Source of the DNA: Planctomyces sp. SH-PL14 | GTDB taxonomy: Bacteria > Planctomycetota > Planctomycetia > Planctomycetales > Planctomycetaceae | DNA: 64,000 nt | NCBI RefSeq assembly: GCF_001610835.1 | Contig: NZ_CP011270.1 | Location: forward strand, 1,240,001-1,304,000 | Direction: 5' to 3' | Shown here: piece by piece, positions 4,598-51,895 of the stretch | Position numbering within the stretch: the first letter of the stretch is position 1 | Layout: the number at the start of each line of letters is the position of its first letter | Notes under the pieces: model-generated | What the model was told of the DNA's origin: nothing | The model's database searches: none | What the model saw: the letters and a program-made list of their open reading frames with translations, nothing else | Made by a program: the position numbers and the translations under genes

Positions 4598-4627
4598 GGA
4601 GGGGTTAAGCATTCAAGGAGGGCCGGC

Positions 4628-4948
4628 TCGAACCGCGTCCGTGCCGACACGACTATGCTAGCTCAAGCCCAATGTGCGACGGCAGCTGGGGTCAAGGGGG
4701 CCTCGCCCCCTTGCCGCCGGAGGCCTCTTCTATGCGGAACCATGAGACACAACGGACGTCCGCTTTGTGGAACCGGCGTCGAGGATTCACCGCTGGCTTT
4801 GCAATCCCCGCGGGTTGGTGAGGCGGCATACGGCACGTCGTCCGCGCCTGGACACTCACTCCTTCAGACATCTCTCGACGGCCAGGCCTCCGGCGGGCAA
4901 GAGGGCGTTGCCCCCTTGCATCCCCCACCAGGGTGCCCCTGGACCCGG
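4628..4948 (+). repeat. Interspersed palindromic element, copy 2
   Basis: Full copy between trmL and the 3' end of lpxI; its right end lies 11 bp from the lpxI stop codon. The innermost pair of hairpin A is C-G (loop CTC), where copies 3-6 have T-A. Hairpin B has GAGGGC/GCCCCC arms. Confidence 0.9.
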
Positions 4949-4959
4949 TCGGGGCTTTC

Positions 4960-7641: not shown

Positions 7642-7733
7642 GGGAAGCTCCGGCCGGTGGTGGGGAGAGAACGCGGGGATGGATGCGGCGCCGGACATCC
7701 TATCGCCAGGGAAGGTTCGCCTCGACTCTGTCA

Positions 7734-8069
7734 CCGGGGTCCAGGGGGTCACCCCTGGTGGGGGATGCAAGGGGGCGAAGCCCTCTTGCCCGCCGGAGGC
7801 CTGGCCGTCGAGAGATGTCTGAAGGAGGGCGTTTCCAAACGCGGACAACGTGCCGGATGGCTCCTCACCTAACCCGCGGGGATTGCAAAACAAGCGGTGT
7901 GGGTTGAGGGGGCCTCAACGCTGGTTCCACAAAGCGGACGCCCGTTGTATCCCACGGTTCCGCATAGAAGAGGCCTCCGGCGGCAAGGGGGTGAGACCCC
8001 CTTGACCCCAGTGGCCGTAGCACGTTGGGTTTGACGTGGCATAGCCGTGCCGGCACGAACGCGGTTCGA
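7734..8069 (-). repeat. Interspersed palindromic element, copy 3
   Basis: Full copy in reverse orientation, lying between a DUF1559 gene and the DinB-like gene that follows it on the minus strand. Terminal hairpin C has the long form (CCAGGGG/CCCCTGG). Hairpin B reads GAGGGC/GCCCCC when turned to the plus orientation. The left end includes GCTCGAACCGCGTTCGTGCC. Confidence 0.9.
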
Positions 8070-8085
8070 GCGAGCGGCCCCTCAA

Positions 8086-11754: not shown

Positions 11755-11773
11755 AACGGCTTCCCCTGCTGGC

Positions 11774-12114
11774 TCGAACCGCGTCCTTGCCGGCGCGGCG
11801 ATGCCAAGTCAAACCCATCGTGCCACGGCAACCTGGGGTCAAGGGGGTCTCACCCCCTTGCCGCCGGAGGCACTTCTATGAGGAACCGTGGGAAACAACG
11901 GATGTCCGCTTTGTGGTACCAGCATTGAGGACCCCCTCCAACTACACCGCTCGCGTTGCAATCCCCGCGGGCTGGTGAGGGGGCATCCGACACGTTTTCC
12001 GCGCCTGGGTACGCTCTTCTTCAGACGTCTCTCGACGGTCAGCCTCCGGCGGGCAAGAGGGCGTTGCCCCCTTGCATCCCCCACCAGGGTCCCCCTGGAC
12101 CCGGTTCGGCACAG
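11774..12114 (+). repeat. Interspersed palindromic element, copy 4
   Basis: Full copy that starts 20 bp after the queG stop codon. The left end GGCTCGAACCGCGTCCTTGCC is well preserved. Hairpin A has the T-A innermost pair (loop CTC). The core has a small insertion relative to copy 2 (CCCCCTCCAACTACACC). Confidence 0.9.
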
Positions 12115-17187: not shown

Positions 17188-17252
17188 AGCGGGCCAAGGG
17201 ACAGGGTGTGTTTTGCGGGGGAGGCGGCGTGGGGTCCAGGCGGCGGATGGGC

Positions 17253-17576
17253 TCAAACCGCGTCCTTGCCGGACGGACTCTCATCGCTCAAACCCAACGT
17301 GCCACGGCAGCTGGGGTCAAGGGGGTCTCACCCCCTTGCCGCCGGAGGCACTTCTATGAGGAACCGTGGTAAGCAACGGACGTCCCCTTTGGGGGACCGG
17401 CGTTGAGGACTCCACGCTCGCTTTGCAATCCCCGCGGGTTGGTGAGGGGGCATACGACACGGCGTTCGCGCTTGAGCACGCACTCCTTCGGACATCTCTC
17501 GACGAGAGGGCCTCCGGCGGGCAAAGGGGCCTTGCCCCTCTGCACGCCCCACCAGGGGTGACCCCCTGGACCCCGG
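17253..17576 (+). repeat. Interspersed palindromic element, copy 5 (reference copy for the fold)
   Basis: Stems can be placed exactly here. Closing stem: GGGGTC 17313-17318 with GACCCC 17569-17574. Hairpin A: 17318-17338. Stem P2: CGCCGGAGGC 17340-17349 with GCCTCCGGCG 17510-17519, enclosing about 160 nt. Hairpin B: 17522-17542. Hairpin C: CCAGGGG 17552-17558 with CCCCTGG 17563-17569. About 60 nt of conserved left flank lie outside the closing stem. The copy lies in the divergent interval upstream of the putative oxygenase gene. Confidence 0.9.
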
Positions 17577-18177
17577 CTCTTGGGCCAGCGCGCAACACTC
17601 CGGCTTCGACTCAGCAACGGCAGGACAACGACGCCGCTCCGGGCCGGCGGGTTCGCGTGATTCGTTGCGCTGACGACCCGATTGACGAAGTGTTAAGCCC
17701 CTGAAACAGGGCGGGCGCAGCCGGCACAATCGCTACAGACGGACTTCCGGGCTCAAAGTCTTTTGCCATCGAATCTTGGGCACAGGCACACTCGGCGCGG
17801 ACGGTCCGGTGGTACGGGTTATGCCATCTGTAACGATTGTCAGGATGGCAACGGTTTGCAGGGATGCAACGGATTTTCCACTGTTCAGCCGGAGCAGCAC
17901 TGGACGAATTGGCTGTCGTGTCGGCGGCCTTCGAGAGCGTGTGTGGCGACCTGAGACACCGCCACTTGACGGCCTTCGGGCCGTTCTTCCGAGGCAAGAC
18001 TGAAAGTCCCCACGGCGTCCGCCCCCTGGCCATGTTGGCCGCGGGTGGGCCACTGGTCCGGGACGACGTGCGAGCCGCTGCGGGCTCAGCTTTCAGTCTT
18101 GCCCGGAGTCTCTCGTCCAGCCTCTTCGCCGCGCCGGCGCCGCCCCTCGCCCCGCATCCGCCCCCATGGAGTCTGTC
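17577..18177. other. 600-bp intergenic region with a foldable leader
   Basis: No convincing gene. It contains small hairpins (for example GGCCTTCGGGCC at 17971-17982) and the three-way-junction candidate listed separately. The open frames on both strands lack gene-like composition and good starts. Confidence 0.5.
17993..18103 (+). ncRNA. Candidate structured RNA / cis-regulatory leader (three-way junction)
   Basis: The closing stem is perfect: GGCAAGACTGAAAG (17993-18006) pairs with CTTTCAGTCTTGCC (18090-18103). Inside it, CACGGCGTC (18011-18019) pairs with GACGACGTG (18062-18070) with one mismatch and carries a GGCC/GGCC hairpin (18028-18040). A separate hairpin GAGCC/GGCTC (18072-18087) completes a three-way junction. 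It ends 74 bp before the pilin-like start codon on the same strand. It matches no riboswitch class I can recognise from sequence. The strand is chosen from the downstream gene only. Confidence 0.45.
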
Positions 18178-26452: not shown

Positions 26453-26494
26453 GATGAACCCCGGGAGCGCTGGCTGCTCCCGGGGTTCATCGTT
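26453..26494 (+). terminator. Rho-independent terminator of clpB
   Basis: A 16-bp perfect stem, GATGAACCCCGGGAGC (26453-26468) with GCTCCCGGGGTTCATC (26476-26491), followed by GTTT. It is 31 bp past the clpB stop and 11 bp before copy 6 of the interspersed element. Confidence 0.85.
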
Positions 26495-26505
26495 TCCCCG
26501 GTCAA

Positions 26506-26834
26506 CCGGGTCCAGGGGCACCCTGGTCAGGGGGTGCAGGGGGCAGAATGCCCCTTGCCCGCCGGAGGCCTGGCCGTCGAAAGTTGTCTGAAGGAGCACG
26601 TGTCCAAACGCGGACAACGCGCCGTATGCCCCCACACCAACCCGCGGAAATGGCAATGCCAGCGGTGTACGTTGGGGGAGTCCTCAACGCCGGTTCCACA
26701 AAGGGGACATCCGTTGTCTGCCGCGGTTCCTCATGGAAGTGCCTCCGGCGGCAAGGGGGTGAGACCCCCTTGACCCCGGCGGCCATGGCACGTTGGGTTT
26801 GAGCAATGGGAGCCTGACCGGCAAGGACGTTGTC
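26506..26834 (-). repeat. Interspersed palindromic element, copy 6
   Basis: Full copy in reverse orientation directly behind the clpB terminator. Hairpin B has an extra A-T pair beside the C-G pair (GCATTCTGC loop region), shared only with copy 7. The region between hairpins B and C reads CCCCCTGACCAGG instead of CCCCCACCAGG, also shared with copy 7, so copies 6 and 7 form a subfamily. Confidence 0.9.
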
Positions 26835-26986
26835 CGAGACAGCGGGATCCAGCCTCACTCCGCGACCGACCACCCGTCGGCGAAAGCCCCGTCGCAACCC
26901 GCCGCTTGACCGGATGGCTATCGGGCGGGCACACTCAGATCCACGCGGATGTTTTGAATGGGTCGAACAAAGCCAGCGGGGCCAAC

Positions 26987-29224: not shown

Positions 29225-29343
29225 CACGCGCTCTCCCCGATCTCGATTGATCGGCTGCCCAGCCAGCTTTCCCCGCTTCGGAATTCGAGGGGGGAGTGCC
29301 GCGTACATTAGCAGGCTGGGTGGAGATCGGCTCGTCCGGCTCA

Positions 29344-29688
29344 CTCAAACGGCGTCCTGGCCGGACGGACTCCCATAGCTCAAACCCGACGTGCGACGGC
29401 AGCTGGGGTCAACGGGCCAAAAAACAACACAGGCCCCCTTGCCGCCGGAGGCGCTTCCATGAGGAACCGTGGTAAGTAACGGATGTTCCCCTTGTGGTCC
29501 CCTCGTTGAGGACTCCTTCACATCACACCGCTTGCTTAGCAATCCCCGCGGGTTGGTGAGGGGGCATCCGGCACGTTGTCCGCGTTTGGACAGGTGCTCC
29601 TTCAGCGAGTGCCTGACGAGACGGGCCTCCGGCGGGCAAGGGGCATTCTGCCCCTTGCATCCCCTGACCAGGGTCCCCCTGGACCCGG
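29344..29688 (+). repeat. Interspersed palindromic element, copy 7
   Basis: Full-length copy with a decayed hairpin A: the left arm is GGGCC and the loop has grown to AAAAAACAACACA, so pairing is largely lost, while P2, B and C are intact. It shares the GCATTCTGC hairpin B with copy 6. Confidence 0.88.
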
Positions 29689-29718
29689 TGCGGACGAAGA
29701 CCATGGCCGCCTATTGGC

Positions 29719-29780
29719 TCGAGCCGCGTCCTCGCCGACGCAGCGATGCCCGCTCAATCCCATCGTGCGACGGCCACCCG
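29719..29780 (+). repeat. Left-end fragment of the interspersed element
   Basis: CTCGAGCCGCGTCCTCGCC, then CTCAATCCCATCGTGCGACGG. This matches the first 60 bp of a full copy, then stops before hairpin A. It lies just behind full copy 7. Confidence 0.65.
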
Positions 29781-29797
29781 GTGCAGCGGGACGCTGC

Positions 29798-37072: not shown

Positions 37073-37365
37073 GGATGACCTCCGGGGTTTCGGTGAAAAA
37101 AGAGGGCGCCGAAACGCAATAGCGGCCGGGCAAGCGACCGGCGCAATGAGCAAGGCGGAACAGTTTGCCTCGCTTCTGTCGTTTCTCTCTACGAACATGT
37201 ATCGCCAGATTCGCCGACCGGCCCGTTGGGTTTCACCGGCAGAAACCGCCATAGCCCCGCAGTCTCGCAATCTCATCGATACAAACGGACTGATGAGTGG
37301 GGATTGGCGAAGTGTTCGTAAGGCCTGATTTTTCGTTGAAGAATCGAAAGACCGCCGAAGTCCAG

Positions 37366-37536
37366 GGCGAGCGGGGAGTCCTCAACGCCCGTCCACAAAA
37401 GGGACATCCGTTGTGTCCCACGGTTCCTCATGGAAGTGCCTCCGGCGGCAAGGGGGCGTGGCCCCCTTGACCCCGGGCTGCCGTCGTACGTTGGGTTTGA
37501 GCAATGGCCGTCCATCCGGCGAGGACGCTGTTCGAG
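37366..37536 (-). repeat. Interspersed palindromic element, half copy
   Basis: The left half in reverse orientation: left end, hairpin A (C-G inner pair, CAC loop), left P2 arm and about 80 nt of core. It ends at GGACTCCCCGCTCGC, so the right P2 arm and hairpins B and C are missing. It lies in the divergent interval between the coiled-coil gene and the SNase gene. Confidence 0.85.
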
Positions 37537-37623
37537 CTGACGTGATCGAGCCATTCCGCCATTCAACGTCATCACCCACAATCCTGCGACTTCACTCCCG
37601 TCGTCCCGAACAAGAGGAAATCC

Positions 37624-48447: not shown

Positions 48448-49593
48448 ATGGGCGAACGGACTCGATGGCGATGGGGATTCGACAGGATTGCGGCCTGCGC
48501 GGCGCTCCTGGTTGCCGTGATCGCCCTGGCGGAGGACCGGCCGGCTGGACGCAGGCCGAATGAGTCCGGGAAAACCCGGGAGCCGATCCCGACCTGGTGC
48601 CAAACCCAGCAGCGGCAGGCGGTGGCGGCGCCGGAGTCGCTCCTCGCGCGAAGCTGTCAGCAGTGCCACTCCGCCGATGATGAGAACGCAGGTTCCACAA
48701 TGCCCTTCAACGCTCCCCTTCCCACGCTCGGCGGCCGACAGCTGTGGGGGGACGTGCGGTTCTTCAGCGGGTGGCGGGTCCAGCAGAACGTCCTCACGAA
48801 GCACTTTCGACTGCTCGATCCCGGCGATATCCGGCGGGCGTGGGGAACGCGGGAGGAGTGCGACGCCGTACTCGCTGACATCCGCCGGACACGGGGCCTT
48901 CCGCCGATGTCCGGCAAGGCGTGTCTCCTGATCCACGGGATCTCGCGGTCGTCCAAGTCGATGGCTCCCCTGGCGGAGCCTCTGCGGCGAGAGGGCTACC
49001 TCGTCGTTCCGTTCGATTATCCGAGCACGCGTCTCTCGATCGAAGAGTCAGCCGACTATCTGCGGCAGGTCGTCCGTTCGCTCGAGGGGGTCGATCAGAT
49101 TGACTTCGTCGTCCACAGCATGGGGGGGTTGCTTGTCCGTTCCTCGCTGGCGAAGACAGCCGACGCTCCCGAGCCTGATCCCCGGTATCGGCGGCTGGTC
49201 ATGCTCGGTGTTCCCAACCATGGTGCCCGGATGGCGGACCTGGTTGAGCGGCAGCCGCTGTACCGGCTGATCTATGGCCGGGCGGGGGGGCAGCTTGTGG
49301 GGCGGGCGAATCCGTTTATCACCGAGCTGCCGATTCCGGCGTTCGAGTTCGCGGTCATTGCGGGCGCACGGGGGACGGCGGATGGTTACAACCCGCTGAT
49401 TCCCGGGGACGACGACGGGACGGTGCGGGTTGAGGAGACCCGTCTCCCGGGGGCGACGGATTTCATGACGGTCCCGGCGATCCATAGCTTCCTGATGAAC
49501 AACCCGGCGGTGATCGACGCGAGTCTGCGTTTCCTCAAGGAGGGGCAGCTCCGGAGCGAGCCAGGCCGAACGCCGATTCCGCAAGGGCCTTGA
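48448..49593 (+). CDS. Exported lipase-like alpha/beta-hydrolase with a CxxCH motif
   Basis: 381 residues. The signal peptide/anchor is at about 12-28. SCQQCH (about 69-74) is a CxxCH cytochrome-c haem-binding pattern ahead of the hydrolase domain. The hydrolase part has LLIHGISRSSKSM (oxyanion region), VHSMGG with the nucleophile Ser, a D in PLIPGDDDGTVRV as the probable acid, and VPAIHSFLMNN with the probable His. This resembles triacylglycerol lipases/PGAP1-like proteins. Whether haem is bound cannot be decided; no distal Met motif is obvious. The element copy that follows begins about 5 bp after the stop codon. Confidence 0.75.
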   Translation: MGERTRWRWGFDRIAACAALLVAVIALAEDRPAGRRPNESGKTREPIPTWCQTQQRQAVAAPESLLARSCQQCHSADDENAGSTMPFNAPLPTLGGRQLWGDVRFFSGWRVQQNVLTKHFRLLDPGDIRRAWGTREECDAVLADIRRTRGLPPMSGKACLLIHGISRSSKSMAPLAEPLRREGYLVVPFDYPSTRLSIEESADYLRQVVRSLEGVDQIDFVVHSMGGLLVRSSLAKTADAPEPDPRYRRLVMLGVPNHGARMADLVERQPLYRLIYGRAGGQLVGRANPFITELPIPAFEFAVIAGARGTADGYNPLIPGDDDGTVRVEETRLPGATDFMTVPAIHSFLMNNPAVIDASLRFLKEGQLRSEPGRTPIPQGP

Positions 49594-49598
49594 AGCGC

Positions 49599-49894
49599 GC
49601 TGGCCGTCGCGACTCCCATAGCTCAAACCCAACTTGCCACGGCAACCTGGGGTCAAGGGGGCCACGCCCCCTTGCCGCCGGATGCACTTCCATGAGGAAC
49701 CGTGGTAAGCAGAGGACTCCCTCACATCACATCGCTCGCTTTGCAATCCCCGCGGGTTGGTGAGGGGGCATCCGGCACGTGGTCCGCGCCTGAGCACGAT
49801 CTCCTTCAGACATCTCTCGACGAGAGGGCCTCCGGCGGGCAAAGGGGCGTTGCCCCTCTGCACTCCCCACCAGGGGTGACCCCCTGGACCCCGG
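49599..49894 (+). repeat. Interspersed palindromic element, copy 8 (internally deleted)
   Basis: Carries all stems but lacks about 30 nt of the core (the CGGACGTCC...GGCGTTG part). Hairpin A has the CAC loop closed by C-G. Its last base is adjacent to the stop codon (CTA, 49895-49897) of the convergent Nramp-like gene. Confidence 0.88.
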
Positions 49895-51346
49895 CTAAGA
49901 GAAGGCGGCGATGAGATCGCGCAGCTGCGTCGGGACTGCGTAGGCCGCAACGATCAGGATCGACACCACCGCGATCCATAACAACACATCCGTCACCACC
50001 CACGGCTGGAGCCGCTTATCGACTCGCGTATACCGGAAATACATCGTCACCAGCGCGATCATCGGCAGCGTCATCGCCTGGGCAATCCCCCCCACCTTGA
50101 CCATCAGCTGCGGGTCACGGGCCACAATACAGAAGAACAGCGCGAGTGCCGGAAAGAACAGACAGAACCGCTGAATCATCCGCACCCGCTGCGGAGCGGT
50201 CGGCGAAGGAGCGATCGTGGTGAGCGTCAGAAAGTCCGCGGTCAGCCGGCTGTTCGCCGCGCACGAAAGATATAGGGTCTTGAACAGCACCGCCCCCGCC
50301 CCGATCAGAAACAGGATCCGTGTCCAGGCCCCGAACGGCCCGATGAACATCTTGGACAGCGTATTCACCAGGGCCGCCCCCTTCGGGTCCAGTCCCTGCG
50401 GATGCAACACCGCCGCCCCCATGACGTAGAAGGCGACCGTCGAGATCGTGAACACGACCATGCTGACCCAGGCGTCCAGGTGCATGACCCGGATCCAGCC
50501 TTTGGCCCGCCGCTCCCATTCTTCGGTCGGCTGGACCCGGCCCGTGAAGCGGGCGTAGCCCTTCTCCAGACACCAGTACGGGTAATAGAAGAGCTCCGTC
50601 GCCCCGACCCCGGTGATGCCGAAGACCGCGAACGCCGTCGACAATCCCGCGGCCGGAACCTGGAACTCCAGCCCCTTGAGCAGATCCTCGCCTCGGACCG
50701 GGAAGTCGGTCCACACGAGTCCCAGCGCGGCGGCCATCGTGATCAGCGTCACGCCGACCACGATCACGGTCGTCAGCCACTCGATCCGCCGATAGCTGCC
50801 GTGGTAGATGAGGGCCATCGTGACGAGGCACACCAGCACTGCCCACGGAAGCTCGGGAGCGTCGGTGAGAAACTGCCCGAGCGCCGGGGAGGCTTGTGTC
50901 GCAACGCTGACGACCTTCGCCGAGAGCGACGGAAAGGCGAGGTTCAGGGCCTGCCCGATCCCCCCCGTCATCCCGCCGAGCTGGAAGACGGTGCAGAGCA
51001 TCATCAGGAACCACCACCAGACGAGCCAGTGGCCGTAGCGGCTACCGCCGGGGACCTCGTTGAGCGCTCCGAGCGTCGGCTTGCCGGACGAGATCGCGTA
51101 GCGGCCGAGCTCGATCTGGACGAAGACCTTGATGACGCAGCTGAAGAGAATCAGCCACAGAAACACGAAGCCGTGTTTTGCGCCGAGGCCCGTGGTGACG
51201 ATCAGCTCCCCGGAGCCGACGATCGTCCCGGCCAGGATGATCCCCGGCCCGATTTTGCGCAGTGCCTCCCACGTTGTGGCGGGAGGTTCCTGGATCGCGT
51301 CGGGAGGGAGCGCATAGGGATCGTAAGCGAGAACCTCATCACTCAT
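49895..51346 (-). CDS. Nramp-like membrane transporter lacking the canonical metal site
   Basis: 483 residues, about 11 membrane helices. The overall pattern, starting with WEALRKIGPGIILAGTIVGSGELIVTT, matches the Nramp/MntH superfamily. The canonical helix-1 DPGN metal motif is replaced by TIVGSG, and the helix-6 MPH motif by GVGATELFYYP. Manganese or iron transport by the usual mechanism is therefore unlikely, and this is better called an Nramp-related transporter. The ATG at 51344-51346 follows a typical spacing. The stop codon directly abuts element copy 8, and copy 9 lies upstream. Confidence 0.82.
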   Translation of the reverse strand: MSDEVLAYDPYALPPDAIQEPPATTWEALRKIGPGIILAGTIVGSGELIVTTGLGAKHGFVFLWLILFSCVIKVFVQIELGRYAISSGKPTLGALNEVPGGSRYGHWLVWWWFLMMLCTVFQLGGMTGGIGQALNLAFPSLSAKVVSVATQASPALGQFLTDAPELPWAVLVCLVTMALIYHGSYRRIEWLTTVIVVGVTLITMAAALGLVWTDFPVRGEDLLKGLEFQVPAAGLSTAFAVFGITGVGATELFYYPYWCLEKGYARFTGRVQPTEEWERRAKGWIRVMHLDAWVSMVVFTISTVAFYVMGAAVLHPQGLDPKGAALVNTLSKMFIGPFGAWTRILFLIGAGAVLFKTLYLSCAANSRLTADFLTLTTIAPSPTAPQRVRMIQRFCLFFPALALFFCIVARDPQLMVKVGGIAQAMTLPMIALVTMYFRYTRVDKRLQPWVVTDVLLWIAVVSILIVAAYAVPTQLRDLIAAFS

Positions 51347-51521
51347 TCGGGTGGCTTTTCATCAGGAGCGTCGGTGATGACCACGTCCGCGCGATGATAA
51401 CGCCGATCCCGACCTGCTGCGCCGCCGTGCGGGAGCGATTTTCCTTGGTATGCCGCGGGACATGACACGATCGTCATGTCCGTTCGAGCCGGTCGTACTG
51501 GAGGCTGATTCTGATGCTTCA

Positions 51522-51855
51522 GAGCACGTCCTTGCCGGCGCGACTCTGATTGCTCAAACCCAACGTGCCTCGGCAGCCTGGGGTCAAGGGGGCCACGCCC
51601 CCTTGCCGCCGGAGGCACTTCCATGAGGAACCGTGGGACACAACGGACGTCCGTTTTGTGGTCCCCGCGTTGAGGACTCCCCCACACCACACCGCTCGCT
51701 TTGCAATCCCCGCGTCATCGGTGAGGGGGGCATACGGCACGTTGTCCGCGTTTGGACACGCCCTCCTTCAAACATCTCTCGACGGCCAGGCCTCCGGCGG
51801 GCAAGGGGGCGTTGCCCCCTTGCATCCCCTACCAGGGGTACCCCCTGGACCCCGG
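51522..51855 (+). repeat. Interspersed palindromic element, copy 9
   Basis: Full copy between the Nramp-like gene and the FAD/Rieske gene. The left end is AGAGCACGTCCTTGCCGG. Hairpin A has a CAC loop with C-G inner pair; hairpin B has the perfect GGGGGC/GCCCCC form. Terminal hairpin C is CCAGGGGTACCCCCTGG. Confidence 0.9.
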
Positions 51856-51895
51856 TTACCTTCGCCAAGGGATGTTCCATCCGGACACCCGGCCG

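Follow-up and report, generated by a model that had tools for sequence, protein, structure and literature searches.

A REPIN-like family of inverted-dimer hairpin repeats with paired changes at the hairpin tips in Planctomyces sp. SH-PL14

One family of inverted-dimer hairpins, whose copies have diverged but are still intact, makes up about 4% of the chromosome of Planctomyces sp. SH-PL14. With roughly even confidence, we regard this element as an old, no longer spreading, lineage-specific REPIN-like family, the hairpins of which are maintained as single-strand folds. The stem-loops would be kept for their ability to fold in single-stranded form, in the case of hairpin B on the minus strand, and may serve as recognition sites for a protein or have a structural role. 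The family would have spread long ago with the help of some enzyme and would now be kept in place copy by copy, and the tips may have changed by short exchange between hairpins. The window, a stretch of 64,000 nucleotides with a G+C content of 66%, belongs to a single contig of 8,442,773 bases and contains nine full copies of the element and one half copy, as detected by nhmmer.

The architecture is described here for copy 5, all parts of which are given on the plus strand. Based on the conservation of the end columns over ~80-90 copies, this inverted dimer of ~325 nt extends from about 17249 to 17574; the nhmmer match covers 17248-17587. Column conservation reaches the background ~62 nt to the left of GTCAAGG and a few bases past CTGGACCC, so that the interval 17313-17574, to which the preliminary description had confined the element, is its core only. 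The copy alignment shows the conserved blocks TTGCCGG and CTCAAACCCAACGTGC in the left arm (17249-17312). It is followed by hairpin A (17319-17337), in which AAGGGGG and CCCCCTT enclose a T-CTC-A tip with the covarying closing pair 17326 x 17330. The central inverted repeat has its 5' arm, GCCGCCGGAGGC, at 17338-17349 and its 3' arm, GCCTCCGGCGGGC, at 17510-17522; according to the pair table both arms are invariant, which makes covariation uninformative either way. Hairpin B (17521-17543), the inverted counterpart of hairpin A, has the closing pair 17530 x 17534 and an A·C mismatch at 17524/17540, and its pairs 5, 9 and 10 covary. The right end is formed by hairpin C (17552-17569, CCAGGGG/CCCCTGG), with near-invariant arms and a variable loop and arm length. 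A left-half model also hit right halves, in the opposite orientation and over more than the hairpin alone (61 hits, E<1e-3), and the element is therefore an inverted dimer of ~160-nt monomers. Each monomer carries a G5/C5 stem-loop beside GCCGCCGGAGGC; the monomers face each other, with the extra hairpin at the right end.

The other plus-strand copies identified by nhmmer are copy 1 (1050-1381, 330 bits), copy 2 (4623-4952), copy 4 (11765-12111), copy 7 (29336-29700), copy 8 (49584-49906, with an internal deletion) and copy 9 (51508-51859). Copies 3 (7720-8075) and 6 (26491-26847) are located on the minus strand, as is the half copy (37362-37540), which comprises the left monomer only (model positions 9-198). 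Copy by copy, the pair that closes hairpin A is T-A, enclosing CTC, in copies 3, 4, 5 and 6 (tip TCTCA) and C-G in copy 2 (enclosing CTC, tip CCTCG) and in copies 8, 9 and the half copy (enclosing CAC, tip CCACG), as had been described before. Copy 1, which was absent from that description, has the four-base tip GCAA, a recurrent class of 39 copies. Copy 7, the hairpin A of which had been considered decayed, in fact belongs to a recurrent class with a long, A-rich tip, found in 47 of 325 copies. Directly after copy 7, a fragment at 29711-29781 of the window matches the left arm of the element only.

To quantify the paired changes, 325 full-length copies were aligned. In the 177 five-base tips of hairpin A, the closing pair is C-G in 116, T-A in 58, G-C in one and T·G in two copies, i.e. 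175 of 177 are Watson-Crick pairs. Permuting the two sides yields 96.9±5.9 such pairs, and a null model on a copy tree that was built without the hairpins, with both columns evolving independently, yields 123±12 (maximum 144 in 1,000 runs, P≤0.001). Chance is therefore excluded. On the same tree, 47 branches change both sides of the pair and two change one. The stem body AAGGGGG/CCCCCTT is unchanged in 172 of the 177 copies; this near-invariance implies that the sequence itself is also constrained, and that the fold is tested at the tips only. No wobble asymmetry was seen in hairpin A, where the mismatches (three G·T, one A·C) are too few for a polarity to be assessed.

Of hairpin B, the 267 copies with the prevailing length were compared. 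Its closing pair, pair 10, is C-G in 209, A-T in 49 and T-A in seven copies, pair 9 is G-C in 234 and C-G in 26, and pair 5 is A-T in 136 and G-C in 111. All three pairs exceed the copy-tree null (P≤0.001) and two non-pair controls do not. A stricter, R-scape-like scan of all column pairs, with a tree-based null and 212 copies, was passed by three pairs. The closing pair of hairpin B is the sole true base pair among them, and the other two, adjoining it, look like register artefacts. Within the window, the inner C-G pair of hairpin B is kept in copies 2, 3, 4, 8 and 9, copies 6 and 7 read C-ATTCT-G with an added A-T pair, and the arms of hairpin C alternate between CCAGGG and CCAGGGG with matching partners, all of which agrees with the earlier reading. 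Independently varying stem positions and common mismatched arms, which would speak against a selected fold, are not the pattern observed genome-wide.

The non-Watson-Crick cells of the hairpin B stem are strongly polar, with 254 A·C against five G·T. Read on the minus strand, a plus-strand A·C is a G·T or G·U. The A·C excess is not caused by a mutation bias between strands, as G>A (5.9%) and C>T (7.5%) changes are about equally frequent outside the hairpins and copies are present in both orientations. It favours the maintenance of a wobble-tolerant single-strand fold of the minus strand; alternatively, the C-rich arm may represent a stricter sequence signal. Taken together, the selected single-strand fold put forward earlier is upheld by two-sided, pairing-preserving changes at the tips of hairpins A and B far beyond chance, and by a hairpin B asymmetry that is unexpected for a duplex-binding palindrome. 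It is not upheld by the fixed stem bodies, by hairpin A with its lack of wobble asymmetry, by the predicted long-range and middle helices of the consensus fold, for which pair tables and copy alignment revealed no covariation, or by the fact that the changes come as whole-tip cassettes. A maintained single-strand fold, whether of RNA or of DNA, is likely for hairpin B and for the tips.

The tips of hairpin A fall into discrete classes, CCACG (76 copies), TCTCA (58), long A-rich (47), GCAA (39), CCTCG (35) and GTCA (19), and behave as cassettes unlinked to anything beyond about 40 nt. The long tip reads CCAA(A/G)AAACAACACAGG; it is inverted in 10 of the 47 hairpins A and also occurs in 32 hairpins B. 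Within a copy, the tip classes of hairpins A and B show no linkage (P=0.77), and on the copy tree the tip state is almost random, with 155 changes compared to 167±4 after shuffling. These observations point to an exchange of tips between hairpins or to repeated switching, and make template switching or cassette exchange a realistic alternative to compensation base by base. The paired changes could accordingly stem from mutation rather than from selection on the fold, by template switching within a hairpin or by tip exchange among the ~2,000 A and B hairpins, with both sides replaced at once and loops invertible. We consider this a serious contender, if somewhat short of an even chance. It would account for the predominance of two-sided branches in hairpin A, for the recurrence of exact cassettes and for the sharing, inversion and lack of linkage of the tips. 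Template switching is known to generate compensatory paired changes and loop inversions (PMC8794818), as observed here, but it has been described within one hairpin, whereas the tips of the element seem to be common to separate hairpins. A mutational origin leaves the fixed stems, the GNNA sequence of 67 of the 71 four-base tips and the one-sided A·C excess of hairpin B unexplained, and pair 5 of hairpin B appears to have changed stepwise, with 49 one-sided branches and 17 A·C intermediates. The ~1,080 near-independent copies extrapolated for the chromosome amount to a natural mutational scan of a hairpin, in which selection, template switching and cassette exchange can be weighed against each other directly.

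This copy number is based on 367 strong matches in 2.86 Mb of sampled DNA. None of 389 copy midpoints falls inside a called gene, and the median distance is 19 nt to the neighbouring stop codon and 136 nt to the start; genes were called by a simple codon-usage script, so that these distances are approximate. The proximity to stop codons would fit a functional structured RNA (or an mRNA 3'-end element) with transcription from numerous loci, in which the covariation would be that of RNA stems, and GNRA-like and UUCG tips and a consensus fold with many helices would suit it as well. However, the orientation relative to neighbouring genes is unbiased (tandem same 85, opposite 95), the middle helices do not covary, and Rfam returned no match at the gathering threshold, the best hit (E=0.25) being far below the cut-off. 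We thus regard an RNA element as quite unlikely.

Five gaps of 38-137 kb are free of the element, at genome positions 217,047-354,381, 1,345,225-1,383,391, 1,423,838-1,502,956, 4,318,993-4,400,000 (the end of the sample) and 5,095,105-5,193,609. Four have a G+C content of 0.61-0.64 and the fifth, of 38 kb, of 0.651. Of eight tyrosine-integrase matches found in the sampled DNA, some of them weak, six are located within or beside these gaps, which are probably horizontally acquired islands, mostly of lower G+C. As the element is missing from low-GC gaps with integrases, DNA of recent acquisition seems not to have been colonised by the family. A search of 39 relatives yielded no element, and in 397 other genomes of the class matches of 30-37 nt in two genomes were all that was found. 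Pattern matches in other genomes were single and scattered over many phyla, as expected by chance, and plasmid and phage records contained no match. Judged by these searches, the family appears to be lineage-specific.

The copies are diverged from each other. Identity to the nearest neighbour is 91.6% at most, with a median of 87.7%, the copy tree has long terminal branches, and degraded copies are few in the 2.86 Mb sample; hence our reading of the family as old and static. Column pairs more than ~40 nt apart are in linkage equilibrium across copies. For a held-out test, conserved sites were defined on one half of the copies; among nearest neighbours of the other half, these sites differed by 1.2%, compared to 33% for variable sites. 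Together with the scarcity of degraded copies, this site-specific constraint is not easily reconciled with neutral decay after insertion, and suggests that the copies are kept in place or that exchange keeps particular sites alike. There was no sign of gene conversion in the form of shared rare haplotypes; the copies that carry rare alleles are locally damaged. The high copy number, extragenic location, half copies and patchy distribution are reminiscent of dead MITE-like repeats that drift neutrally, with the hairpins as mere relics. Given the held-out constraint and the few degraded copies, we consider this highly improbable; a target-site duplication, which such repeats would lead one to expect, was not detected, as 10,140 comparisons of flanks gave no convincing k-mer match, although age could have erased it. 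No autonomous parent with the ends of the element was seen in the sampled 2.86 Mb. The half copies (46, of which 37 are right halves, against ~325 dimers) are slightly more decayed than the dimers, with a conserved-site load of 3.2% compared to 2.2%, which lends weak support to selection on the dimer as a unit. The family bears on the long retention of REPIN-like repeats by bacteria, as its copies appear old, are absent from new islands and are still conserved.

On the core chromosome, the spacing of the elements is more regular than that of random intergenic slots (combined z about -4.1; the simulations carried the same gap limit as the data), with an effect that is uneven between blocks, four of ten segments individually reaching P<0.05. 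Even spacing, invariant stems and unbiased orientation are all compatible with a protein-binding palindrome in duplex DNA or a chromosome-organising site, kept for its sequence and not for single-strand folding. Such a site would, however, need neither the covariation of the closing pairs nor the polarity of hairpin B, and the spacing effect is not uniform; this explanation is unlikely in our view. We are also doubtful, but a little less so, about a chromosomal hairpin site that is functional at about 1,080 evenly spaced places of the core chromosome, with fixed stems and with tip cassettes renewed in either orientation by a dedicated or repair-driven exchange between copies.

Of the known systems, REPINs, which are doublets of REP units of 20-40 nt (Bertels and Rainey 2011, PMC3116915), and BIMEs resemble the element most in form. 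They share with it the high copy number, the extragenic location, the conserved palindromes and the combination of two inverted stem-loop units into one element, and here, too, half copies corresponding to singlets occur and the inverted doublet is the common form. In contrast to the REP unit, the monomer measures ~160 nt and the dimer ~325 nt, the spacer blocks are as conserved as the hairpins, and the tips vary as cassettes. A GTAG or CGTC tag is absent beside hairpins A, B and C in the consensus, and GGAG is present solely inside the GCCGCCGGAGGC arm. REPs with GTAG and CGTC tags have been reported in Planctomycetes as well (Di Nocera 2013, PMC3733652); like the element they are intergenic hairpin repeats, often downstream of coding regions, but the GTAG REP of this genome has another sequence and three copies, all beside the RAYT gene. 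The element is REPIN-like in shape and is not classed as a REPIN, given its size and the lack of the tag and of a cognate RAYT.

No enzyme linked to the element was found among the RAYT and IS200-like genes of the genome. The one RAYT (NF047646) was rejected as a cognate enzyme, being flanked by its own GTAG REP, with the nearest element several kb away. It is located at 1357-1986 of L072 (genome ~2,097,753) and forms, with the GTAG REP at genome positions 2,097,380-2,097,612, a minimal REP/RAYT system. TnpA of the IS200/IS605 type and TnpA_REP recognise single-strand hairpins in a strand-specific manner (PMC8266576), a property that would match the pattern of tips and polarity in the element, but the two Y1 genes of the genome carry other hairpins without a link to it. 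The IS200-like transposase gene at 1370-2010 of L071 (genome ~6,246,572) was likewise dismissed, as the hairpins on both of its sides are of a different type, CCTGGGGCAACGCCCCAGG, and unrelated to the element. The sampled 2.86 Mb also contains nine copies of a second hairpin-rich repeat of ~240 nt, which sits twice at the half-half junction of the element, at genome positions of about 6,073,431-6,073,666 and 5,386,920-5,387,155.
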